NCBI GenBank assembly: GCA_026874595.1
Contig: CM049321.1
Span: 10,899,979-10,963,978 of the forward strand
Origin: Sipunculus nudus
Lineage: Eukaryota > Annelida > Sipuncula > Golfingiida > Sipunculidae
DNA length: 64,000 nt
Direction of reading: 5' to 3'
Part shown: positions 4,870 to 58,385 of the stretch, in pieces
Layout of the letters: every line of letters begins with the position of its first letter
Numbering within the stretch: position 1 is the stretch's first letter
The notes under the pieces: model-generated
Told to the model about the DNA's origin: nothing
Database searches by the model: none
The model's input: the letters and a program-made list of their open reading frames with translations, nothing else
Made by a program: the position numbers and the translations under genes

Positions 4870-7303
4870 CAAGTGACCCATGGGTCATGACGCTCAGCTG
4901 CCAAGCATGACCTGTGACATCATGGACTGAGATTCACAACTTCCAGTCAAATTTTGAAGAACCAATTTGCCAATTTGTTGAAAATTTTCTATGACAACAG
5001 AAATATATATCACCTATGTCTGGTTAAAACACAGTGAATTGATGGTCTGAGGAAAATGCATGATTGTTAAGCTATCAGGAACTATTCCAACAGCTTGCTT
5101 GAAACCTGTCAGTCTCAAAGGAACACCACAAAGGGCAAATATAAGATCAAAATATATAGCAAAAATCAAGGAAATACATGCAAGAATTATTGAGAAACAG
5201 GTGCTTCTGTATGAATTTTTATTCAATACAAGCCAACTGTACTGCACTTTTATAAATGATGGTTATATTTATTCAGAAATATTTGACCCAATCCTTTACA
5301 AGATTACATAAATATACATCCAACTGCATTCACTTTAACTGTTCTTGAGATAATATGATCAAAAGGAATTAAAAGATGGTTGATGGTGGCCATATTGGAC
5401 TTCTGACAAGTCTGAAATCAGACAACAAACATTCTCTAAATCTGACCAAACATTAAAGAAAAATTACTGAAACTGCACTGAAGAAAGAATTTCTAAGGTG
5501 GCTAACTGGCAGACATAATGGATTTCTGACAGGTATGACATTTGATATCCCACATTCTCCAATAAGAGACCAAACTTGGGGCAAATTATCCAGTAATGAA
5601 TACCCAAAATAATTCAAAAGGCATGTCCAGGCCCTCATATCAGATTTATAGATATGCAATTGTAAAAAGTGTAAGTCCAATATTTTTTATTATCACTCTG
5701 CTTTTCAATGGGGTCAGCAGGGTAGGTAAACTGCCAAACCTGAAAGAAAAGAAATGCAGAAAGCATGACTAAGAGTCTTGAAATAAAACAAAAAGCCATC
5801 CTAAATCAAGGTACACATCCACATATTATGAGAACAAACACTTGCTTTTATATGTGGTGATATAAATTAAAATATTCAGATATCTAGGAAACTAAGTTTA
5901 TTGCTAGGATTTCATAAAATAAACTGCAAAATGTTCCCATCATCTTATAAATCAGTAGCTAAACCTCAATACTATACTCTCATAGTCTTAATGCCTGGCT
6001 GAAGCATTCTGACAACAGTGTTTTTGTTATGAAGTAACGAGGTACTTATCACTGAGCCTTATCACTTAATAGGCTGATACAAAAAGGAGTCATATGTCAC
6101 CAGTGTCACTCACAATTACAGCCACACAGGGAGATGTACCAGCTGGAGTGGGATGGTTATATATACAAGAAAAATAGAGATGGTCTATAAAATAAGTAAT
6201 TGTGAACATCCCTGACCTATGACCTTGGCCTTTTGCCCATATATCAACTGGATTCTTTCTAAATGATTGGTTACTACTAACCACTAAATCTGGTGTAATT
6301 ACTTGGCAACCAATGGGTGAATAACTTTGACCTTCAACCTTTAACCTGCTGACCAGCTGACCCCAAAATCAATAAGTTATTTATTCAAGCAAAAAGACCC
6401 ATAAATATGAAGTTTGAGTCAAACTGAGTGATGCATAGATGTAGCATATGTGAAAGACTGAAGGTTTCGGTTGAACAGTTACACTTGAAATATGCTCACA
6501 AGCATTTAGAACAATTAAATATTGTGACCTTGACCTTTGACTTTTTGACCTCAACATCAATAGGCTTCTTCCCTTATTGGTAGGTAAGCCATATATGACA
6601 GATGGAAGGTACAGATTTAAAAGTTTGCCTGAAAATGACTCCACGCAAGAAGTGGGTGCTGTGAACTTGACCTTTGACATCAAAATCAACAGGTCTTTTC
6701 CCCTGTTGGCAGAGAAGCGATATCAGTGCTGGAAGGTTTGGAATGAAAAGTCTAGCTTGAAATGTGTCCACAACCTTTTCAAAGAAGTGGATCCTGTGAC
6801 CCTGACCTTTGATCTTGTGACCTCAAAATCTATAAGATTCTTCTCCAACTTAGTAGGTGAGCTGTATGTGAAAAATCAAAGAACTGGGGTGAAAGGGTTG
6901 GCTTAAAATGCATCCACAGGCTTTTCAAAGAAGAGGCTCCTGTGACCTTGAACTTTGACCTTTTGACCTAAAAAAAATTATGGTTCTTCCCCTGTTGGTA
7001 GGTGAGCTGTATGTGAAAGATGGAAGGTTTGGGATGAAAATTTTGTCTCAAAGAGTTATTTCTGGGGGGTGCAAACACACCCCATAACTTCGAGAATATA
7101 GGTCGCAGTGACCTAATTTCAGGTTTGCAAGGAGATCTTTTTATAACCTCTAAGACTGCATAGGGTTCATGGCCCTAGCCCCTATGGTTACGATTTGTGC
7201 CCTGCTAATGGACGGACGGCCGGCCGGACGGACAGACGGAAGGAAGACGGACAAAGACCCATCGCTATAGCCCAGCATGACTGAAAGTCAGCTGAGCTAA
7301 AAA
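4870..7303 (-). mobile_element. Family 2 Helitron-like element (copy Z), nested inside copy X
   Basis: The 3' end is at 4870 (CAAGTGACCCATGGGTCA on the plus strand, containing the 14-bp palindrome TGACCCATGGGTCA). The 5' end is at about 7303 (GTCAGCTGAGCTAAAAA, preceded by its own foldback and by GACGGACGG at 7211-7250). The same position in copy Y, about 11255-11265, is uninterrupted, so Z moved into X after the X/Y ancestor existed. The core holds a tandem array with a period of roughly 140 bp. It is non-coding. Confidence 0.75.
6200..7050. repeat. Tandem array (about 140 bp unit) carrying TGACCTTTGAC motifs
   Basis: About six diverged units each contain a TGACCT-TGACC-type block followed by CTTCCCCTGTTGGTAGG and a GGAAGGTTTGGGATGAAA-like segment. 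The blocks fall near 6205, 6318, 6531, 6664, 6800 and 6949. The block at 6949-6961 is TGAACTTTGACCT, whose complement AGGTCAAAGTTCA fits the DR1 nuclear-receptor consensus (HNF4/RXR type). The array forms the core of nested element Z. Confidence 0.7.
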
Positions 7304-13039: not shown

Positions 13040-13490
13040 TCCCCCCTAGGAGCCATCCCAAAACATTAGGGGTAAAATATGCACAATCTCAAAATAATTA
13101 TTCTAGATTTCAGCAGATCTGACCTTTAAGGTCAAGGTCAGTGCTTTTGAGGTCCTATATTTTGGCAGAAAGAACTGGTGTGTCAAAAATAGACAAAATA
13201 TGTAAAAATTGGAAAAAATACAGGTGGCACCACCAGTCTGCAGGAACTGACGAAACAGTCCAATATGCATGGAAAAAATAAAGGCCACTTGCATTAGTTA
13301 TTCGGTTACTGGAGCTTTTGTTTCAAATTTTTAATTATTCTGGGGGGTACTTACAAGCCCATAGCTCACAGGACATGGGTAACAAAGACCTTATTTCAGG
13401 TTTCCAAAGGGATATTTTATTGACCTCACTGGATGTCAAGGTTGAAGATTGTCCAATGGACAGATTTGTGCCCTGTAAATGGACAACCGA
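13040..13490 (-). repeat. Single unit related to the 340-bp repeat of element 53782-58263
   Basis: The complement matches the 54-58 kb array unit: ...CTGCAGACTGGTGG.GCCACCTGTATTTTT..., 'acccatgtcctgtgagctatggg' and 'ctttgttaccc'-like words recur in the same order. The palindrome here is GGTGGCACCACC (13211 region), one base off the main form. It is an isolated, inverted and decayed copy. Confidence 0.6.
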
Positions 13491-13689
13491 ATCTTTTAAA
13501 AACTCAAAAATAGAGATAAAATGCATTACAAGGCCTACAAGCCTAATGCGAACCTGTGCAATGGGATATACACCAGGTATAATGCTTCAATGCTGGACCA
13601 TTACAAGTACATGTGTAACATGTAAATGAACTATGCAATTACTAAACATTTTGAATAAGATACTATTACACAAGCATCACTGCTGAAAT

Positions 13690-13850
13690 TCTGGCATTGG
13701 TGCACACAACACAAAAATGATTATAGCTGGCACAACCAGTCTTGTATACAACCAAGCTATCAGAGATATATACATATGCCCCATTTTAGACTCATATATC
13801 AAACCCCTCCTGAGAAATAAGCAGGGACATACAGTGCAAAAATTATTGTA
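13690..13850 (-). repeat. Fragment related to the unit at 37840-38110
   Basis: The segment reading ATGATTATAGCTGGCACAAC...CTTGTATACA...GATATATACATATGCC...AAACCCCTCCTG is the inverse of the segment at 38020-38120. It is a solitary relic of the decayed family 1-like copy on the other side of the window. Confidence 0.55.
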
Positions 13851-14184: not shown

Positions 14185-15891
14185 CTAGAATACGGGTAAT
14201 CCACAAGTGACTACGTGTATCCGCCAAAATCAGAGAAGGACGGGTGAAGTGAGGCATGGATTGACTGACAAGGGGAAACACACATCCCATAAACATGATT
14301 GTAGGTGGCGCCACCTGTTATTTGAATGAGAAACTATCCAAGATGTATACACATGCAAAATCTCATGTGGAAAAGTCAAACCACTGCAGAGATATGAGTG
14401 ATTTTATCCCACAGCAGACAAACAGATGGACGCTGTGCAAAAATGCTGCAGGTGGCGCCACCATTTTTATGTATGTTATAAAGATATCCAAGGGCAACAT
14501 TTGTGTAATTTTTTTTTCCTGATTGGTCAAATGAGTCCGGAGATATAAGCATTTATGTCTGCAGCGTGAACGTTAATGTAGGTGGTGCCACCTGTCTTAA
14601 AATTTAAGAAAGCTATGCGGGATGTAATACGCATGTCGAATTTCAGGTAATTTGGTCAAACCACTGCAGAGATACGAGTGATTTTAACCCAAGGCAGACA
14701 TACAGATGGACGCTGTGCGAGAATGGCTGAGGTGGCGCCACCATTTTTGTGTACATTATAAAGCCATCCAAGGGCTACATTTGCGTAATTTTTTTTTCCT
14801 GATCGGTCAAACGGTTCCTGAGATATGAGCTTGGATGTCTGCAGCATTAACGTGAAGACAGGTGGCGCCACCTGTCATTAAATCAAGAAAGCTATCTAGA
14901 ATGTATACGCATGCCAAATTTCAGGTGAATTAGTCAAACCACTGCAGAGATATGAGTGATTTTAACCCAAGGCAGACAAACAGATGGACGCTGTGCAAAA
15001 ATGGCTGCAGGTGGTGCCACCATTTATGTGTATGTTATAAAGCTATCCAAGGGCTACATTTGAGTAAAATATTTTTCCTGATCGGTCAAACGGTTCCCAA
15101 GATATGAGCTTGGATGTCTGCAGCATTAACGTGGAGGTAGGTGGCGCCATCTGTCCGAAATCAAGAAAGCTATCTAGGATGTATACGCAAGCTGAATTTC
15201 AGGTGAATTAGTCAAACCACTGCAGAGATATGAGTAATTTTAACCCAAGGCAGACAAACAGATGGATGCTGTGCAAAAATGGCTGCAGGTGGCGCCACCA
15301 TTTTTGTGTATGTTATAAAGCTATCCAAGGGCTACATTTGTGTTTAAAAATTTTCCTGATCGGTCAAATGGTTCCTGAGATATGAGCTTGGATGTCTGCA
15401 GCATTAATGTGAATGTAGGTGGCGCCACCTGTCACAAAATCAAGAAAGCTATCTAGGATGTATACGCATGCCGAATTTTATGTGAATTAGTCAAACGACT
15501 GCAGAGATATGAGTGATTTTAACCCAAGGCAGATGAACAGATGGACACTGTGCAAACATGGTTGCAGGTGGCGCCACCTTTTTATGTGTATGTTATTAAG
15601 CTATCCCAGGGCTACATTTGTGTAATAAAATTTTTCCCGATCGGTCAAACGGTTCCCGAGATATGTGGGTTTATGTGTGGAAACAGACGCACAAACGGGC
15701 GCTGGGCAGAGAGGAAAGGTCAGAGGTCAAGGTCACTTGGTTAGGCACCAGTTCACATGTGACCCAATAATTTGTGTAAGTTTCGGAAAAATCCGTCCAG
15801 TAGTCTCAGAGGAGTTCTCCGGAAACGAACGCGACGGCAGCAGAACCCGGTCAAAAACATAGTATCCGCAAAACTTTGTTTTGGCGGATAC
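14185..15891 (-). mobile_element. Family 1 Helitron-like element (copy a)
   Basis: In minus orientation the 5' end at 15891 is a foldback, GTATCCGCCAAAA with its complement (plus strand 15862-15891). After a 5' region with a DR1 (15717-15729) comes a core of ten GGTGGCGCCACC-like palindromes. Then come the inverted subterminal repeat (GTATCCGCCAAAA on plus, 14217-14229), a decayed hairpin and CTAG (14185-14188). Palindromes start at 14304, 14451, 14581, 14731, 14861, 15009, 15139, 15288, 15418 and 15567, with intervals alternating near 147-150 and 130. This is the organisation known for non-autonomous Helentron/HINE elements: subterminal inverted repeats, tandem core, 3' hairpin. No coding potential; short frames across the units are by-products. 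Confidence 0.75.
15717..15737 (+). promoter_or_regulatory. DR1 plus extended half-site (nuclear-receptor-like)
   Basis: AGGTCAGAGGTCA is a perfect direct repeat of AGGTCA with one-base spacing. It is immediately followed by TCAAGGTCA, the extended half-site known for ERR/NR5A receptors. It lies in the 5' region of family 1 copy a. Binding is not demonstrated. Confidence 0.4.
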
Positions 15892-28848: not shown

Positions 28849-30589
28849 CTAGAATACGGGTAGTCGACAAGCGACTACGTGTATCCGCCAAAATCAGAGA
28901 AGGACGGGTGAAGTGAGGCATTGATTGAGTGGCAAGGGGATATAGAGTTACATGTGTTAAATATTAGAATGGATCTCTGCCACATAAACATGATAGTAGG
29001 TGGCGCCACCTGTTATTTGAACGAGAAACTATCCAATATATATACACATGCAAAATTTCATGTGGAAAAGTCAAACCACTGCAGAGATATGAGTGATTTT
29101 ATCCCACAGCAGACAAACAGATGAACGCTGTGCAAAAATGGCTGCAGGTGGCGCCACCATTTTTGTTCGTGTTATAAAGCTATCCAAGGGCTACATTTGT
29201 GTAAAAAAATTTTCCTGATTGGTTGAATGAGTCTGGAGATATAAGCATGGATGTCTACAGCGTGAACGTGAATGTAGGTGGCGCCACCTGTCATAAAATC
29301 AAGAAAGCTATGCGGGATGTATAAGCATGCTGAATTTCAGGTAATTGGGTCAAACCACTGCAGAGATATGAGTGATTTTAACCCAAGGCAGACAAACAGA
29401 TGGACGCTGTGCAAAAATGGCTGCAGGTGGCGCCACCATTTTTGTGTATGTTATAAAGCTTTCCAAGGGCTACATTTGTGTATTTTTTTTTTCCTGATTG
29501 GTCAAACGGTAAATATAAGCTTGGATGTCTGCAGCGTTAACGTGAATGTAGGTGGCGCCACCTGTCAGAAAATCAAGAAAGCTGTCTAGGATGTATACGC
29601 ATGCCGAATTTCAGGTGAATTTGTCAAACCATTGCAGAGATATGAGTGCTTTTAACCCCAGGCAGATTAACAAATGGACACTGTGCAAACATGGTTGCAG
29701 GTGGCGCCACCTTTTGTTGTGTATGTTATAAAACTATCCCAGGGCTACATTTGTGTAAAAAAATTTTTCCGGATCGGTCAAACGGTTCCCGAGATATATT
29801 GGTTTATGTGTGGAGCGTAAACGTGAATGTAGGTGGCGCCACCTGTCATAAAATCAAGATAGCTATCTAGGATGTATATGCATGCTGATTTTTAGGTGAA
29901 TTAGTCAAACCACTGCAGAGATATGAGTGATTTTAACCCCAGGCAGATGAACAAATGGACACTGTGCAAACAAGGTTGCAGGTGGCGCCACCTTTTGTTG
30001 TGTATGTAATAAAGCTATCCCAGGGCTACATTTGTGTAAAATGTTTTTCCGGATCGGTCAAACGGTTCCCGAGATATATGGGTTTTGTGTGGAGCGTTAA
30101 CGTGAATGTAGGTGGCGCCACCTGTCGTTAAATCGAGAAAGCTATCTAGGATGTGTATGCATGCTGAATTTTAGGTGAATTAGTCAAACCACTGCAGAGA
30201 TACGAGTGATTTTAACCCCAGGCAGATGAACAGATGGACACTGTGCAAACATGGTTGCAGGTGGCGCCATCTTTTGTTGTGTATGTTATAAAGCTATCCC
30301 AGGGCTACATTTGTGTAAAAAAATTTTACGGATCGGTCAAACGGTTCCCGAGATATATGGGTATATGTGTGGAAACAGACGCACAAACGGACGCTGGGCA
30401 GAGATGAAAGGTCAGAGGTCAAGGTTAATTGGTTAGGCACCAGTTCACATGTGACCCGATAATTTGTGTAAGTTTCGGAAAAATCTGTCTAGTAGTCTCA
30501 GAGGAGTTCTCCGGAAACGAACGCGGCGGCGGCGGCGGCGGAACCCGGTCAAAAACATAGTATCCGCAAAACTTCGTTTTGGCGGATAC
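28849..30589 (-). mobile_element. Family 1 Helitron-like element (copy b), best-preserved termini
   Basis: The 3' terminus on the minus strand is intact: CTAG (plus 28849-28852), an 8-base spacer, then a perfect 6-bp stem hairpin TAGTCG-ACAAG-CGACTA (28861-28877), then the subterminal repeat GTATCCGCCAAAA (28881-28893). The 5' foldback lies at 30560-30589. The core has ten palindromes starting near 28998, 29147, 29277, 29426, 29551, 29700, 29830, 29981, 30110 and 30260. A DR1 lies at 30409-30421 and a (GGC)n expansion at 30525-30540. It sits in one copy of a duplicated segment (compare 36083-36145) and is absent from the other. It is non-coding. Confidence 0.78.
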
Positions 30590-32307: not shown

Positions 32308-32430
32308 GCACCTTTTACTACAGAAAATAGCATCACAGACAGTAAGGCAGTTCTAATAATAGATACCATTTAACATTTACTAGTTTTACAAATATATTTC
32401 TTTTAATTTTTGTAGGTGATTGGAAAAAAG

Positions 32431-33450
32431 ATGTACAGGCAGACAAGTTTAATTGTTATGGTGTGTGTATTAATTGTCGTCATCGGTCTGTATATCGTCC
32501 CTGCGAGATGGGGTGCCACACAAAATAACACTAAATCTATTTTTCAATGGTCGATATTCAAGCAAAACAGCGTTCTAAAGAGCAGTCTCCTAACGTCAGA
32601 CGGAACGGTAAAACACTGCGTCACCCGTTATATGATTCGCTCCACACTTAACAAACCAACCAAGAATTATGACGGTATCCTGCACGTGGAGAGTAAAGAA
32701 ACGGCGGCCGAGCGAAAGCAATCTTTTGAAACCATTTACAAAAAGCGCACGTGGGGAGGCGTTCCTAATAACGCCGACCCAAGATTGAAAGACGTGTTAG
32801 GATCGGGTCCAAGCTCGACGCTGGATTACACCCAAGAAATAATGGGAGTTCTTCATACTGTAATAAATGAATTAAAGATGGTCTTGAATAAGCCAAAAAT
32901 ACGCCTGCTTGATATCCCATGCGGAGATTTCCAATGGATGTTCCGATTCTTGGTTCAAAGAAATGATATAGATTACACTGGCATGGATATTGTACCTCTG
33001 TTAATTGATAATCACAGGAAAGCCTTTAAGGACGTCCCTGATTGGACATTTATTCAGGGAGACATCGCGGAAGCCCAACCCCCGGGACAATATGATTTGC
33101 TAGTTTCGAGAATAGCATTAAACCACCTTCCTTATAAGGCGGTGCTTAAAGCTCTCACTAACCTTAGCAAAGCTGGTAAGTATCTCTTGTTAACAACAAA
33201 CGCAGGAGTTCAGAAAAATGTTGACTTGAACAGTGTACAATCCTTCAGATACAGACATCTCAATTTCGAAATACCACCAATATCTTTGGAGCCACCATTA
33301 TGTATGGCCCGTGACGGACCGCCGGGCCGCGCCAGAAATCATTCCATTGCACTTTGGAAACTTCCCCTCCACCAGGTGGCGCCATGCTCTACCCAACGGA
33401 TCAAAATTTCTCCATCAATAAGCGACCATGATTATTTTGTTTGTGGATAA
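32431..33450 (+). CDS. Type II membrane-anchored class I SAM methyltransferase-like protein
   Basis: Start is the first ATG (32431), 15 bases after an acceptor (TTTTTTGTAG|GTGATTGG); the protein is 339 residues. Residues about 3-23 (SLIVMVCVLIVVIGLYIV) form a signal anchor, so the catalytic part probably faces the Golgi/ER lumen. A Rossmann methyltransferase domain follows. Motif I is LLDIPCGDFQW (about 159-169), DYTGMDIV (182-189) is the strand-2 acidic loop, FIQGDI (207-212) is the adenine-contact region, YDLLVSRIALNHLPY (221-235) the motif IV region, and YLLLTT (251-256) a late strand. An FETIYKKRTWGG motif (99-110) and a C-terminal LWKLP are features I associate from memory with a metazoan family of uncharacterised methyltransferases. 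The catalytic residues look intact; the substrate is unknown. The tail after LPLHQ overlaps a GGTGGCGCC word shared with the repeats, so the last 20-odd residues may be lineage-specific. Confidence 0.8.
   Translation: MYRQTSLIVMVCVLIVVIGLYIVPARWGATQNNTKSIFQWSIFKQNSVLKSSLLTSDGTVKHCVTRYMIRSTLNKPTKNYDGILHVESKETAAERKQSFETIYKKRTWGGVPNNADPRLKDVLGSGPSSTLDYTQEIMGVLHTVINELKMVLNKPKIRLLDIPCGDFQWMFRFLVQRNDIDYTGMDIVPLLIDNHRKAFKDVPDWTFIQGDIAEAQPPGQYDLLVSRIALNHLPYKAVLKALTNLSKAGKYLLLTTNAGVQKNVDLNSVQSFRYRHLNFEIPPISLEPPLCMARDGPPGRARNHSIALWKLPLHQVAPCSTQRIKISPSISDHDYFVCG
33369..33382 (+). promoter_or_regulatory. CTCF-like motif inside the methyltransferase coding end
   Basis: CCACCAGGTGGCGC fits CCASYAGRKGGCRS at all 14 positions. 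A second near-match, ACACCAGGTGGCGT (12 of 14), lies at 33559-33572, past the poly(A) signal. Binding is not demonstrated. Confidence 0.35.
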
Positions 33451-37840: not shown

Positions 37841-39014
37841 AAGACAGGTGGTGCCACCTACATTGACTTTTGCAGTGTATGCGCCTGCTTATTTCTACAG
37901 AGGAATTTGATACATCAGCCTAAATTTGGGCATGTTTATACATACCGGGTAGCTTTATAGTGTACAAGACTGGTGGCGCCACCTACAAAAATTTTTGCAG
38001 TGTATGTCCCTGCTTATTTCACAGGAGGGGTTTGACATATCAGTCTGACATTGGGCATATGTATATATCTCTTTGATGTATACAAGACTAGTGGTGCCAG
38101 CTACAATCATTGTATTGCGGATGCCGCATAGGTTTCCGAAGAACTCCTCCGTAATCACTGGGCAGAATATTTTGAAATTCAAAATTATGATGGGGTCACA
38201 TGTGAACTGCTGCGCCGTCATTTTTAGTTGACCTCTGACCTTTCCTCTCTGCCCAGCGTCCATTTGTGCGTCTGTTTCCAAACATAAACCTACATATCTC
38301 GGGAACCGTTTGACCGATCAGGCTAAAAATTTTGCACAAACGTACCCCTTGGATAGCTTTATAACATACACTTAAAACGGTGGCGCCACCTGCAACCATT
38401 TTTGCACAGCGTCCATCTGTTCATCTGCCTTGGGATAAAATAACTCATATCTCTGCATTGGTTGGACTTATCCACCTGAAATTTTGCATGTGTATATATC
38501 CTTGGCAGCTTTCTTGACAGGTGGGGCAACCTACATTTATGTATACGCTGCAGACATTCAGGCTTATATCTCAGGACTGGTTTGACATATCCCCCTGGAA
38601 TTTTGAATATGTATAGATCTCACATAGCTCTTAATCATATCCAAAATTGGTGGCGCCACAGCGTCCGTCTCTTTGTCTGCCGTGGGCTAAAATCACTCAT
38701 ATCTTCAGTAGTGGTTTGACTTATTTGCCTAACATTTTGCATGTTTATACATCTTGGATAGCTTAATTTCTCGATTTTGTGGCAGGTGGCGCCACCTACA
38801 TTTATGTATACGCTGCAGACATTCAGGCTTATATCTCCGGACTGGCTTGACATATCCCCCCTTTGCCTGTGTCTAGATCTCACATAGCTCTTAATCATAC
38901 CAAAAATTGGTGGCGCCACCTGCCACCATTTTTGCACAGCGTCCTTCTGTTTTCCTGCTGTGGGATAAAATCACTAATATACAAGTAGTGGTTTGACTTA
39001 TCTGCCTAATCCTG

Positions 39015-39016
<2 letters not shown>
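37841..39016 (+). mobile_element. Decayed family 1-like element (copy e), 3' end lost
   Basis: From about 38110 it follows the family 1 5' region in order: GAAGAACTCCTC, GGGTCACATGTGAACTG, TGACCTCTGACCT (DR1, 38229-38241), CTCTGCCCAGCGTCC, then palindromes near 38380, 38640, 38783 and 38910. The preceding 37841-38110 holds two further palindrome units of another subtype. The expected subterminal repeat, hairpin and CTAG are missing where a (TA)n tract begins at 39017. Confidence 0.6.

Positions 39017-39093
<77 letters not shown>
39017..39093. repeat. (TA)n microsatellite
   Basis: About 75 bases of pure AT alternation. Confidence 0.95.
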
Positions 39094-46620: not shown

Positions 46621-46946
46621 TCTAGTTATGGAACTACTATCCCCCATAAGTTTTCTAGTTATGATACCACTATCCCCCAAAAGTTAATACCACACCACAT
46701 TTAAGGTAAAGTTTGGCAGGTTTTAAATATTCTAAGTTTATTTCTCATGATTATGTTTATATTTGGTAAATTTATATTAATATTACTCTGTAAGATAGAG
46801 GAAAAGCTTACATATAGAAGTTTACGGGTCAATTTTGAATGTACATGTTATAGTTATTATAACTGTTTGTATCATCCATTTAAAAAAAACTAAATTAACA
46901 TTAAAATATGCTTTTCATTGCATGCTGTGGTATATTGTAGTCAGGC

Positions 46947-48149
46947 ATGGATTCATTTGAGGAAAACACACTTTCAAAGACTTCAGAAGAATCTGATGGA
47001 GAAATATGGGTAAAACAAGAAGAAGAAGAAGACCAACATTCAGTTGAAAGTCACAAAACTCCAGCTGTATCAGAATCTGCATGCACAACTTACATAGTGT
47101 TAGATACCATAAAATCTGAGAACATTGAAAATTTGACTTTGCCTTGCAAATCAACAGAGGAGGGCAAGGATTTAGCTGATGACAGTCAGACAAAAGCCTT
47201 AATAAATCACCAATCAGAGCTGTCAGTCTGCCAAAAATGTGGGACAAGTTACTCTAGTGATTATGAGCCTGATGAACGAGACAGTGAGTCACGAAGTACA
47301 GATGAAATACATATGTGTGAAAATTGTCAGAATTCACACTCAAACACTTTTTCAGCAGAGACTACAATAGAAACAAGCTGCACTTTTTGTGGAAAATCCT
47401 TTGCTAATGGCAGATACTTGCGGAGACACATTAAGATTCATACGGGTGATAAACGTTACAAATGTGAAAATTGTGGTAAAAGTTTCATCACAAAAACTCA
47501 ACATGAACGTCATGTACGCACACACACAGGAGAAAAACCGTTCCAGTGTCAGTATTGTAAGAAATGGCATGCTTCAAAGGGTGAACTAAGTGTGCACATA
47601 AGAACACATGAGACTGATAAAGCTTTCAAATGTCATATCTGTAACAAATGTTTTCCCACGAAGAGACATCTGACATTACATTTCAGATGCCACACAGGAG
47701 AGAAACCATTTGTGTGTGAATTTTGTGGCAAATCTTTCACCTCCAGCACAAATCGGGCTCGCCATGTTCTCGTCCACACTGGGGAGAAACCATTTGTGTG
47801 TGAGCATTGTGGGAAATCTTTCAGAGAGAAGTGTCAGCTTGTCAGACATGTCAGAACCCACACCGGGGAGAAACCTTTCAGTTGCGAGTTTTGTAGCAAA
47901 TCTTTCATCGATCAGAGCCATCTTGCACGTCACGTTAGGACTCATACCAAAAAGAAGTTTCACTGCTGCGAGTACTGTGGCAAAAGCTTTTCTGAAAATA
48001 GCAACCTCAAAACCCATAAGAGGATACACACGGGAGAGAAACCGTACCACTGTGAACTGTGTGAGAAAAGTTTCACTCAGAAGAGTAACTTGAAATCACA
48101 CATGAGAACACACTTTAGTCATAAGCCAGACACAGAATTTACCACATAA
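46947..48149 (+). CDS. Nine-finger C2H2 zinc-finger protein
   Basis: A complete 400-residue frame. The N-terminal 140 residues are acidic and disordered, with two SUMO consensus sites (VKQE at 22-25 and IKSE at 55-58) and no KRAB or BTB domain. A half-finger remnant, CQKCGTSY, has no histidines. Nine C2H2 fingers run from residue 145 to 389, with TGEKP or near linkers (TGDKR, TGEKP, ETDKA, TKKKF). The third finger has KKWHAS where KSF is usual, and the eighth has an extra Cys (HCCEYC). The arrangement is that of nuclear DNA-binding regulators with SUMO-dependent repression; targets are unknown. An acceptor-like TTGTAGTCAG ends just before GCATGG, so a 5' UTR exon probably lies upstream. The short C-terminus after the last finger is usual. 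Unrelated in detail to the finger gene at 1-2043. Confidence 0.93.
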   Translation: MDSFEENTLSKTSEESDGEIWVKQEEEEDQHSVESHKTPAVSESACTTYIVLDTIKSENIENLTLPCKSTEEGKDLADDSQTKALINHQSELSVCQKCGTSYSSDYEPDERDSESRSTDEIHMCENCQNSHSNTFSAETTIETSCTFCGKSFANGRYLRRHIKIHTGDKRYKCENCGKSFITKTQHERHVRTHTGEKPFQCQYCKKWHASKGELSVHIRTHETDKAFKCHICNKCFPTKRHLTLHFRCHTGEKPFVCEFCGKSFTSSTNRARHVLVHTGEKPFVCEHCGKSFREKCQLVRHVRTHTGEKPFSCEFCSKSFIDQSHLARHVRTHTKKKFHCCEYCGKSFSENSNLKTHKRIHTGEKPYHCELCEKSFTQKSNLKSHMRTHFSHKPDTEFTT

Positions 48150-53781: not shown

Positions 53782-53859
53782 TTTTTAGCTCAGCTGACTG
53801 AAAGTCATCTGAGCTATAGCGATCACTCTTTGTCCGTCGTCCGTCTGTCCGTCCGTTAA

Positions 53860-56800
53860 CCAGGCACAAATCGTAACCGCTGGACCTAGAACCTTGTAAC
53901 TTGGGATTCTGAGAGGTCCATAAAAAATCTCCTTGGAAACCAGAAATTAGGTCTCTGTTACCCATATCCTTCGAGCTATGTGGCCCCAAAGTACCCCCCA
54001 GAAAAGTCAAAAATTTCATACAAAAACTTCAATATCTCATTAACTACTTGACTGATGGTCATGATTTTTGGCATACATATTGATCATGAGATGTTACATC
54101 ACTTCCTGCAGACTGGTGGCGCCACCTGTATTTTTCGATTTTTTACGAATTTTTTTCTCTATTTTTGAGACCTTTAAAAATGTGAACATCTGTTAACAAG
54201 GCACAAATCATAAAGACTGGACTTAGAATCTTAATTTTTGACACACTGAGAGGTCCATGAAAAATCTCCTTGGAAACCAGAAATTAGGTCTCTGTTACCC
54301 ATATCCTTCGAGCTATGGGGCCCGAAAGTACCCCCAAGAATAGTAAAAAATTTCATACAAAAACTTCAATATCTCAATAACAACATCACTGATGGTCTTC
54401 ATTTTTGGCATACATATTGATCATGAGATGTTCTATCAGTTCCTGCAGACTGGTGGCGCCACCTGTACTGTTTGATTTTTTACGATTTTTTCCTCTATTT
54501 TTGAGACCTTTGAGGATGCTGTCATCTGTTAGCGTGGCACAAATCGTAACGACTGGACCTAGAATCTTCATTTTCGACACACTGAGAGACCTATGAAAAG
54601 TCTCCATGGAAACCAGAAATTAGGTCTCTGTTACCCATATCCTTCGAGCTATGGGGCCCAAAACTACCCCCCAGAATAGTCAAAAGTTTCATACAAAAAC
54701 TTCAATATCTCATTGACTACATCACTGATGGTCATGATTTTCGACATACATATTGATCATGAGATGTTTCATCAGTTTGTGCAGACTGGTGGCGCCACCT
54801 GTATTTTTCAATGTTCACGAATTGTTTTCTCCATTTTTGAGACCTTTAAGGATGTAGTTATCTGTCAACAGGGTACAAATCGTAACGACTGGACCTAGAA
54901 TCTTCGTTCTTGACACACAGGGAGACCCATGATAAGTCTCCATGGAAACCTGAAATTTGGTCTCTGTTACCCATATCCTTTGAGCTATGGCACTCCAAAG
55001 TACAGCTCAGAATAATGGAAAATTTGACTATGATACAAAAGCTAAAGTATCTGAACAACTAATGCAGAGATAACCATAATTGTTTGCATGGATATTGATC
55101 ATGGAGTGTTTCATAAGTTTCTGCAGACTGGTGGCACCACCTGTATTTGTTCGGTTTTTTTTTTTTTTACAAATTTTCCGGTATTTTTGAGACCTTTAAA
55201 GATATGAACATCTGTTAACAGGGCACAAATCATAAAAACTAGACCAAGAATCTTCATTCTTGACACACAGGGAGACCCATGAAAAGTCTCCATGGAAACT
55301 TGAAATTAGGTCTCTGTTACCCAATATCTTTAAACTGTATGGGTCCAAAATACCCCCCCCCCTTGAATAATGGAAAATTTGATACAAAAACTGCAGTATT
55401 TCAATAACTACAACACTGATGGTCATGATTTTCGGCATACATATTGATCATTAGCTGTTCCATCAGTTTCTGCAGACTGGGTGTGCCACCTCTATTTGTA
55501 TCCGCCAAAACGAAGTTTTGCGGATACTATGTTTTTGACCGGGTTCCGCCTCCGCCGCCGCGTTCGTTTCCGGAGAACTCCTCTGAGACTACTGGACAGA
55601 TTTTTCCGAAACTTACACAAATTATCGGGTCACATGTGAACTGGTGCCTAACCAAGTGACCTTGACCTCTGACCTTTCGTCTCTGCCCAGCGTCCGTTTG
55701 TGCGTCTGTTTCCACACATAAACCCTTATATCTCTGTAACCGTTTGACCGATCCGGAAAAATTTTTTACACAAATGTAGCCCTGGGATAGCTTTATAACA
55801 TACACAACAAAAGGTGGCGCCACCTGCAACCATGTTTGCACAGTGTCCATCTGTTCATCTGCCTGGGGTTAAAATCACTCATATCTCTGCAGTGGTTTGA
55901 CTAATTCACCTAAAATTCGGCATGCGTATACATCCTAGATAGCTTTCTCGATTTTATGACAGGTGGCGCCACCTACATTCACGTTAATGCTCCACACATA
56001 AACCCATATATCTCGGGAACCGTTTGACCGATCCGGAAAAAATTTTTACACAAATGTAGCCCTGGGATAGCTTTATAACATACACAACAAAAGGTGGCGC
56101 CACCTGCAGCCATTTTTGCACAGCGTCCATCTGTTTGTCTACCTTTGGTTGAAATCACTCATATCTCTGCAGTGGTTTGACCAAATTACCTGAAATTCAG
56201 CATGCTTGTACATCCCGCATAGCTTTCTTGATTTTATGACAGGTGGCGCCACCTACATTCAGGTTCACGCTGTAGACATCCATGCTTATATCTCCGGACT
56301 CATTCAACCAATCAGGACAATTTTTTTACACAAATGTAGCCCTTGGATAGCTTTATAACATACACAAGAATGCTTGTGTATATATCTTGGATAGTTTCTC
56401 ATTCAAATAACAGGTGGCGCCACCTACAATCATGTTTATGTGGCAGAGATCCATTCTAATATTTAACACATGTTACTCTATATCCCCTTGCCACTCAATC
56501 CATGCCTTACTTCACCCGTCCTTCTCTGATTTTGGCGGATACACATAGTCGCTTGTCGACTACCCGTATTCTAGTTTTTTTCAAATTTTTACGAATTTTT
56601 TTCTTTTTTTTGAGACCTTTAAAGATGTGGTTATCTGTCAACAGGGTACAAATCGCAACAACTGGACCTAGAATCTTCATTCTTGTCATGCAAGGAGGCC
56701 CATAAAAGGTGCCTATGGAAACTTGAAATTAGGTCTCTGTTACCCATATCCTTCAAGCTATAGGACTCCAAAGTATCCCTCAGAATAATGGACAATTTGA

Positions 56801-56918
56801 TACAAAAACTTAAGTATCTGAACAACTAATGCAGAGATCACCATGATTTTTTGCATGGATATTGACCATTAAGTGTTTTTATTAGTTTATGCAGACTGGT
56901 GGAGCCACCTGTATTTTT
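53860..56918 (+). repeat. 340-bp tandem array (about 6 units), interrupted by a family 1 copy
   Basis: Each unit carries CTGCAGACTGGTGGCGCCAC and TGTATTTTT, a TTTTTACGAATTTTTTTC stretch, GGTCTCTGTTACCCATATCC and a GATATTGATCATGAGATG-like segment. Palindromes start near 54115, 54453, 54788, 55132, 55478 and 56898, i.e. every 336-346 bp once the inserted element is subtracted. From left to right the palindrome decays from GGTGGCGCCACC to GGTGGCACCACC, GGGTGTGCCACC and GGTGGAGCCACC. Confidence 0.8.
55498..56574 (+). mobile_element. Family 1 Helitron-like element (copy c), intact ends
   Basis: The 5' foldback is GTATCCGCCAAAACGAAG with TTTTGCGGATAC (55498-55527). A DR1 lies inverted at 55663-55675. 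The core has palindromes near 55812, 55961, 56095, 56243 and 56412. The 3' part has the inverted subterminal repeat TTTTGGCGGATAC (56530-56542), a perfect TAGTCG-CTTGT-CGACTA hairpin (56546-56562), 8 bases, then CTAG (56571-56574). The flanks are T on each side and rejoin as one unit of the surrounding 340-bp array, giving an internal empty-site control. Confidence 0.82.
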
Positions 56919-58081
56919 GCATCTGCCAAAACGAAGTTTTGCAGATACTATGTTTTTGACCGGGTTCCTCTGCCGGTGTTCGTTTCCAGAGAGCTCCTCG
57001 GAGACTTATGGACCGATTTTCCCCAAACTTACACCTATTATCGGGTCACATGTGAACTGGTGCCTAACCAATTTGCGTTGACCTCTGACCTTTACTCTCT
57101 ATCCAGTGTCCATTTGTGGGTCTGTTTCCACTCATAAACCCTCATATCTCGGGAACCGTTTGACCGATCAGGAAATAAAATTGATACAAATGTAGCCCTT
57201 GGATTGCTTTATAACATACACAAAAAATGGTGGCGCCACCTGTAACCATGTTTGCACAGTGTCCATCTGTTCATCTGCCTTGGGTTAAAATCACTCATAT
57301 CTCTGCAGTGAATTGACTAATTCACCTGAAATTCGTCATGCGTATACATCCAGGATAGCTTTCTTGATTTAATGACAGGTGGCGCCACCTACATTCACGT
57401 TCACGCTGATGACATCCAAGCTTATATCTCGGGAACCGTTTGACCGATCAGGAAATAAAATTTATACAAATGTAGCCCTTTGATAGCTCTGTAACATACA
57501 CAAAAAATGGTGGCGCCACCTGTAACAATGTTTGCACAGCGTCTGTCTGTTAGTCTGCCGTGGCCTAAAATCACTCATTTCTCTGTAGTGGTTCGACATA
57601 ACTGCCTAAAATTTTGCAGGTTTATACATCATGGACAGCTTTCTTGATTTTATGACAGATGCCACCTACATTCTAGTTAACGCTGCACACATCCAAGCTC
57701 ATATCTCAGGAACCATTTGACCGATTGGGCCAAAATTGTGCATGTGTTTAGATCTCACATAGGTCTTTATCATACACAAAACTGGAGGGGTTACCTGCAA
57801 AGATTTTTGCACAGTGTTTGTCTGTTTGTCTGCCATGGGCAAAAATCGCTCATATACATGTAGTGGTTTGACTTTTCTGCCTAAAATTTTGCAGGTGTAT
57901 GCAACTTGGACAGCTTTCTGGATTTGTGGTAGGTGGCACAACCTACATACACATTTAGGCTGCAGACATCCATGCTAATATGCAACATACCTCACTCTAT
58001 TACCCCTTGCCACTCAATCCATGCCTCACTATCCGATTTTGGCAGATACATGTAGTCACTTGTCAGTTACCCGTATTCTAG
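56919..58081 (+). mobile_element. Family 1 Helitron-like element (copy d), older
   Basis: It has the same organisation as copy c but more decayed: foldback GCATCTGCCAAAACGAAG with TTTTGCAGATAC (56919-56948), inverted DR1 at 57079-57091, palindromes near 57230, 57377 and 57509, 3' subterminal repeat TTTTGGCAGATAC, a weakened hairpin, and CTAG (58078-58081). It sits in the next unit of the same 340-bp array. Confidence 0.75.
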
Positions 58082-58385
58082 TTTTAAAAGTTTACACATT
58101 TTTCTCTATTTTTGAGATATATAAATACAGACTAAATCTTGGCCTGTTGGTTAATCTGTTTGATGCTTCAGTTGAATGGGTATATACTACCATTCTGATG
58201 ATAAAATTTCCTTTTGCGAATCTCTTCCCAGTCAGCTGAGCGTCATGACCCATGGGTCACTTGTTTTTTTTTAGTCACTTAATTTTGCACCCCTTGTTGT
58301 TAAATTCGAAGTTGATATTATGTTTAACTGTTAGTGCGTCACAGAACTTTGTGTAAGCTGAGCGTTATTACCAAAGGGTCAGTTG

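Follow-up and report, generated by a model that had tools for sequence, protein, structure and literature searches.

The element at positions 55498-56574 of the forward strand is very probably a HINE, that is, a protein-less transposon of the Helentron branch, which lies here as cargo inside an outer, mobile HINE with a likely Helentron partner. The window, by which we mean the whole stretch of 64,000 nucleotides that was analysed, corresponds to C16:10899979-10963978 of the 1.43 Gb genome of Sipunculus nudus. The original prediction, made from the letters of the window alone, had assigned the element to the HINE/Helentron group, and all HINE marks that could be tested were found. Reading from left to right, the inner element consists of a 5′ foldback, a (CCG)n-like microsatellite, a core array, a 3′ hairpin and a terminal CTAG, with inverted repeats in subterminal positions. 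The 5′ subterminal inverted repeat (subTIR), the 13-mer GTATCCGCCAAAA, lies at 55498-55510 (+) and falls within the 11-15 bp of HINE subTIRs, and an inverted repeat at 55515-55527 (-), with two mismatches to the 13-mer, completes the foldback (GTATCCGCC...GCGGATAC); the TT just upstream (55496-55497) may be part of the element. The microsatellite (55546-55562, +) varies in length in the alignment of the four inner copies. It is followed by the core array (55711-56425, +), built of ~149+131-bp monomers and containing five exact palindromes AGGTGGCGCCACCT (at 55812, 55961, 56092, 56241 and 56412). The ‘long palindromic core’ that had been described for it was overstated: a single 14-bp palindrome lies in each monomer, and the array as a whole does not read as one. 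The right end comprises the 3′ subTIR (56530-56542, -), the hairpin TAGTCG-CTTGT-CGACTA (56546-56562, +) and CTAG (56571-56574, +), after which comes TT. Compared with the canonical Helitron ends (5′ TC and 3′ CTRR), the 3′ CTAG fits, whereas the 5′ end, (TT)GTATCC, does not. No ORF of at least 150 aa was found inside any of the inner copies. The 30-base inner 5′ foldback, with one free position, has 2240 matches in the genome, and the backwards control has 0.

Five loci of the window had been proposed to share this plan. Four of them do, and the fifth, at 38106-39016, is a relic that lacks the terminal 13-mers. Apart from the main copy, the inner family is represented by free-standing copies at 14185-15891 (-) and 28849-30589 (-), the latter being nearest to the main copy (97.7% in the 5′ module), and by a more diverged copy at 56919-58081 (+). 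Identity of the 5′ modules is 94.9-97.7% among the first three copies and 86-88% between these and the copy at 56919-58081. The foldback and the inverted 13-mers were found where they had been predicted in all four loci: exact GTATCCGCCAAAA and its inverted partner are present in 14185-15891 (-), 28849-30589 (-) and 55498-56574 (+), and the pair in 56919-58081 (+) carries two and one mismatches. When up to two mismatches were allowed, the 13-mer had 12 matches in the window, one of which (at 46670) falls outside the elements; 100 shuffled sequences gave 1.6 matches on average and never more than 6. The tandem arrays were detected by TRF with a period of 278-280, and their length varies between 2.3 and 4.9 copies; the period of ~280 results from alternating steps of ~149 and ~131 bp, and GGTGGCGCCACC is exact in most inner monomers and variant in some. 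In the alignment the hairpin TAGTCG/CGACTA is perfect in 55498-56574 and 28849-30589; the copy at 14185-15891 has it in imperfect form, and in that at 56919-58081 it has decayed. The CTAG terminus was recovered throughout, as CCCGTATT-CTAG terminates all four inner copies. In the relic, neither terminal 13-mer was found within two mismatches at 38106-39016, related monomers start upstream at ~37846 (37846-39016, +), and (AT)n begins at 39017; it looks truncated, and it alone presents the core without the terminal hairpin, an arrangement that the original prediction had counted against itself. Downstream of the 14185 copy, 13684-13807 and 13214-13521 (-) hold an inner-type monomer near one 336-type unit, without terminal repeats.

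The two plus-strand inner copies are not free insertions at this locus. Both proved to be cargo of a second family, an outer HINE at 53782-58267 (+) that had been missed. Its 5′ end (53782-53818, +) consists of TTTTT, the subTIR AGCTCAGCTGACTG and the inverted repeat CATCTGAGCT, and it is followed by a GTCC-type microsatellite (to ~53854, +) and by a 336-bp tandem array (53855-55497, +; TRF 336 x 4.8), the units of which hold GGTGGCGCCACC or near variants. A further outer 336-bp unit (56575-56918, +) separates the two inner copies, and the outer 3′ tail (58082-58267, +) contains the subTIR (~58230-58242), the hairpin TGACCCATGGGTCA (58246-58259, +) and CTTG (58260-58263), then TT. BLAST of the window against itself revealed that both inner copies break 336-bp units at the same T-run. 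The outer 3′ end, taken as a 32-mer, has 3897 exact matches in the genome (backwards control 0). Best window matches to outer 5′ ends are at 7301, 8398 and 12370 (-) and 53784 (+), and those to outer 3′ ends at 2772, 4901 and 8624 (-) and 58232 (+). The order of ends at 12370-8591, 8398-2739 and 7301-4868 (-) suggests three further outer HINEs, one of them nested in a member of the same family. Repeats of the inner and the outer family have GGTGGCGCCACC in common; palindrome-blind profiles gave no match to the 336-bp unit, though a forced alignment lines the unit up with the inner monomer, and it is unproven that unit and monomer descend from one repeat.

The block 53782-58267 is mobile as one unit. 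A copy on C3 matches window positions 53782-58267 exactly in span (97.1% over 4514 bp), and a copy on C14 matches 54189-58265 (98.2% over 4081 bp) and stops at the outer 3′ end; in the latter the outer 5′ end is present and the array is apparently one unit shorter. Shared sequence stops at the outer 3′ end in the window, C3 and C14 copies and at the 5′ end in the window and C3 copies. The C14 copy sits in another 336-type unit, and its flanks, compared by eye, fit insertion at a T-run with no longer duplication. Among 40 scored inner 5′-end matches, 21 extend into a 336-unit flank, and in 20 of these 21, the window copy counted in, a scored inner 3′ module lies 1.1-1.4 kb off. In the first 25.65 Mb of C1, over which both sets of matches are fully covered, 18 of the 62 inner 5′ foldbacks are followed on their own strand by an exact outer 3′ end at a distance of 1,282-1,323 bp, and one more has such an end 5,141 bp downstream; within 6 kb, none of the 62 has an outer 3′ end downstream on the opposite strand, and two have one upstream on the same strand. 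Ten of the 18 pairs were read, and all ten have a 336-unit flank upstream and the outer tail, followed by copy-specific DNA. A chimera of an inner 5′ end and an outer 3′ end, to which the constant spacing of ~1.32 kb had pointed, was rejected on account of the 336-unit flank upstream in 10 out of 10 pairs. Taken together, the C3 and C14 copies, the 336-flanked matches and the C1 pairings indicate that inner HINEs frequently travel within the outer one. The units that hold the two inner copies in the window are 0.215 apart, whereas a different unit lies at 0.135 from the second one and groups with it (support 0.954); this argues against a mere doubling of one unit that already bore a HINE as the source of the two inner copies. 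The composite predates this locus.

Profile PF14214 (Helitron_like_N) matches the genome at 143 places, several of which lie in ORFs of 1,658-2,426 aa. In a group of such elements, lineage II, the outer 3′ end was found ~990 bases past a 2,342-aa ORF on C17 (one mismatch in 34) and after a 1,658-aa ORF on C7 (three mismatches); for the lineage II element on C13, the 16 kb read contained no outer end. With at most 9 of 34 mismatches, the outer 3′ end is present on the right strand at ten of the 12 loci presumed to belong to lineage II and at none of six lineage I loci, in 2-kb windows placed at the same offset from Rep, where the lineage I windows may end before the 3′ ends of those elements. 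Of these 12, three had been read in sequence earlier, and nine were assigned by hit coordinates before reading. One of the ten end-bearing loci also has an outer 3′ end on the opposite strand. Downstream homology links nine of the 12 loci, and the outer 3′ end is present in all nine; L052, L054 and L057 have no downstream homology to other lineage II loci, and the outer 3′ end is absent from the 2-kb windows of L052 and L057 and present with seven mismatches in L054. Homology among lineage II paralogs ends at the outer 3′ end in three subgroups. At the other side, an outer 5′ end marks the start of the sequence shared by the Helentrons on C10 and C17; both have another end of this type further in, by 1.06 kb on C10 and 0.72 kb on C17, so that the true start is ambiguous. 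In these 5′ regions (L074 and L075) the second 5′ end has the same direction and lies inside a 336-type unit. It looks as if this Helentron had entered an outer element and then moved on with it. The C17 Helentron extends from ~C17:35640367 to 35625477 (-), which is ~14.9 kb from the outermost start and otherwise ~14.2 kb. Its 2342-aa ORF, scanned in two pieces, has Helitron_like_N (3.3e-27) and PIF1 (1.2e-15) matches in one protein, a weak match to Exo_endo_phos (9.5e-5; 22.7 bits, below the cut-off of 24.5), the kind of endonuclease domain that Helentrons of this lineage would have at the C terminus, and DUF6570 and Herpes_teg_N matches closer to the N terminus. Judged from their termini, these Helentrons with outer 5′ and 3′ ends are most likely the autonomous partner of the outer family.

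The original prediction had suggested looking for an autonomous partner with the termini of the inner element; the one found has the ends of the outer family, not those of the inner one. Among the loci examined, no Rep-locus element has the inner family's ends, and only embedded inner copies were seen; the windows of six more Rep loci lacked the inner 3′ end, one of them having an inner 5′ end and one an outer 3′ end. Inner elements also travel in lineage II Helentrons. On C5, C10 and C17 these carry a variant inner HINE before the ORF, always at one position, where the C9 copy retains the 3′ end of that HINE. The lineage I Helentron (most of L011-L032, read further on C11) was rejected as a partner, since the 15.5-kb region read on C11 and six further windows contain ends of neither family. 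That region (L012, L043 and L044; C11:50376800-50392300) holds a Helentron-like element of lineage I with a 2235-aa ORF and a 69-bp-period repeat at its start. Ahead of its Rep there is, judged by eye, an OTU-like protease motif. Five loci (L055, L056, L060, L062 and L079) have a variant outer 3′ hairpin in which one pair is changed on both sides (TGACC/GGTCA to TGGCC/GGCCA), and four of these five 3′ ends terminate in CTAG, as the inner family does.

An empty site for the inner element was obtained from Helentron paralogs. The C9 copy reads AACAGTAATT, element, TTAATGTTATATTG (right flank TTAATG), and its empty paralogs on C5, C10 and C17 read AACAGTAATTAATGTTATATTG (AACAGTAATTAATG). Since in this comparison of one filled site with three empty ones TT alone is shared, either TT was duplicated or TT was carried at one end of the element. 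Insertion at TT without target duplication, as predicted, is borne out by this one site, where nothing past TT is shared. For the outer family, TT follows all 16 tallied 3′ ends of the CTTG type, and at Rep loci it comes next in 11 of 13 right-strand outer-type ends, with TA or TG in the other two. These observations agree with the TT preference and unmodified target of Helentrons in the available text of PMC4067079, and with the TT insertion without duplication of oyster HINEs in that of PMC7492417.

From the superfamily we infer rolling-circle movement, with nicking by a Rep/helicase and the hairpin as a stop signal. A Rep/helicase/endonuclease supplied in trans would recognise the inner ends, nick at the 5′ foldback end, replicate through the element and halt at the hairpin-CTAG end, and the single-stranded copy would then enter a TT site. 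The internal array may lengthen or shorten by slippage or unequal exchange. Because the composite has moved as a unit and free copies exist as well, the inner elements spread in two ways, by free insertion and as passengers of the outer family.

Three other accounts of the block were weighed against this one. That one lineage II Helentron moves both families, leaving the inner one with no partner of its own, is rather unlikely. Such sharing would fit the TT that flanks the inner element at the empty site and follows most outer ends, the lineage II elements that end in CTAG like the inner family, and the inner copies embedded in lineage II Helentrons, but the embedding may be due to chance followed by hitchhiking, and the subterminal repeats of the two families differ; PMC4067079 requires 11 or more identical subTIR positions for membership in one Helentron family. 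A satellite DNA spread by tandem or segmental duplication, with the terminal motifs as passive bystanders, would account for the abundance of the arrays and for two inner copies at the same place in adjacent 336-bp units. We nevertheless regard this as very improbable, because homology of the window, C3 and C14 copies stops at the outer 3′ end and that of the window and C3 copies at the 5′ end too, right flanks differ among the ten C1 copies, the empty site is clean, and the units with inner copies are not sisters. Scarcely credible is a cut-and-paste MITE or foldback element, which the small size and the inverted repeats near both ends might suggest: the repeats are subterminal and the two ends unlike, the filled and empty sites have TT alone in common, and Rep/helicase elements bear the ends of the outer family, whose plan is the same.

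A different proposal concerns the palindrome AGGTGGCGCCACCT, which has 41,719 exact matches in the genome (0 when read backwards). A host factor, CTCF for example, could bind the palindromes, in which case the arrays would be dispersed insulator-like clusters, a reading that we consider improbable. AGGTGGCGCCACCT holds on both strands a CTCF-like core (AGRKGGCRS), and when a CTCF matrix was applied, 27 of the 36 near-perfect palindromes in the window scored on one strand at a p no higher than 1e-4. Against the full motif CCASYAGRKGGCRS, the core matches but the upstream CCA half does not, and four window sites outside the elements outscore every element site with this matrix. An earlier conservation test was biased, as monomers had been picked via the palindrome, and its palindrome-blind replacement gave a weaker signal. 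In the palindrome-blind alignments the palindrome is conserved to 0.91 and 0.95 in the two monomer types, as compared with 0.84 and 0.83 in the remainder, but other monomer segments reach 0.93-0.96. The most diverged monomers (n = 14 and 5) favour a retained palindrome (0.90-0.91 vs 0.67-0.69 elsewhere), whereas the least diverged first-type monomers show no excess (0.923 vs 0.925). The CpG-decayed form AGGTGGCACCACCT is common as well, with 14,624 copies (backwards control 1), which counts against the proposal. A role of a host protein at the palindrome is possible; the larger scenario, in which nested Helentrons would have seeded more than 40,000 14-bp palindromes in evenly spaced clusters, kept by binding of a CTCF-like or other zinc-finger chromatin protein and forming a dispersed insulator-like network, has in our estimate only a small chance of being correct. 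The CTCF-like sites outside the elements, at 33366, 46482, 27566 and 33556, have the upstream CCA or a close variant, and the best of them lies in a methyltransferase-like ORF (32416-33450). The window also contains a 400-aa C2H2 zinc-finger ORF at 46947-48149.

The reading of the inner element as a Helentron-branch HINE carried by an outer one has several implications. HINEs spread satellite-like repeats through animal genomes, and Helentrons with both ends of one HINE family make the trans-mobilisation model testable. The nesting implies that one non-autonomous rolling-circle element can multiply as the cargo of another, and offers repeats a simple way of spreading with more than one pair of termini; the palindrome count illustrates how common one short element-borne motif can become. 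A search of paper texts gave, for the terminal subTIR strings, papers that by their titles are unrelated, and for GGTGGCGCCACC a single unrelated one. Exact searches of viral and prokaryotic sequence collections with the terminal and core strings gave no match.

Among known systems, the element is a member of the HINE family that is ordinary in kind. The closest description is that of Cg_HINE from Crassostrea gigas (PMC7492417, available text), which likewise has a left subTIR with a complementary inverted repeat and a microsatellite, central repeats (mostly 140-180 bp), a right subTIR with a palindrome, TT insertion without duplication, and insertion into other repeats. The elements described here differ from it in their alternating 149/131-bp core, in the 336-bp outer units, in a two-family composite that moves as a unit, and in a Helentron that carries both ends of the outer family. 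In the same text none of the ten autonomous elements of the oyster could be related to Cg_HINEs, and Pearl, DTC84 and MgE of bivalves are short elements with central repeats that resemble the present ones by description, Pearl having later been placed with Helentrons. DINE-1, HINE-Mo and Helentrons, as covered by the available part of PMC4067079, share with our elements subTIRs of similar length, an inverted repeat partly nested in the 5′ subTIR, a 3′ stem-loop, the TT preference and a Rep/helicase partner. The differences from DINE-1 and HINE-Mo in that source are the long central array and the ends, here a 5′ TT and a 3′ CTAG or CTTG before TT, which are nearer to those of the proto-Helentron (5′ TT, 3′ CTAG; PMC4067079). 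Oyster loci with nested Helitrons and Helentrons (PMC12628747 and PMC11136912) resemble the present case in mutual insertion and complex structure, but in the available portions of these papers no counterpart is described of a nested pair that moves as a unit in many copies. Three things in Sipunculus nudus are out of the ordinary: this nested composite, the Helentrons that have both outer-family ends, and the abundance of the motif.
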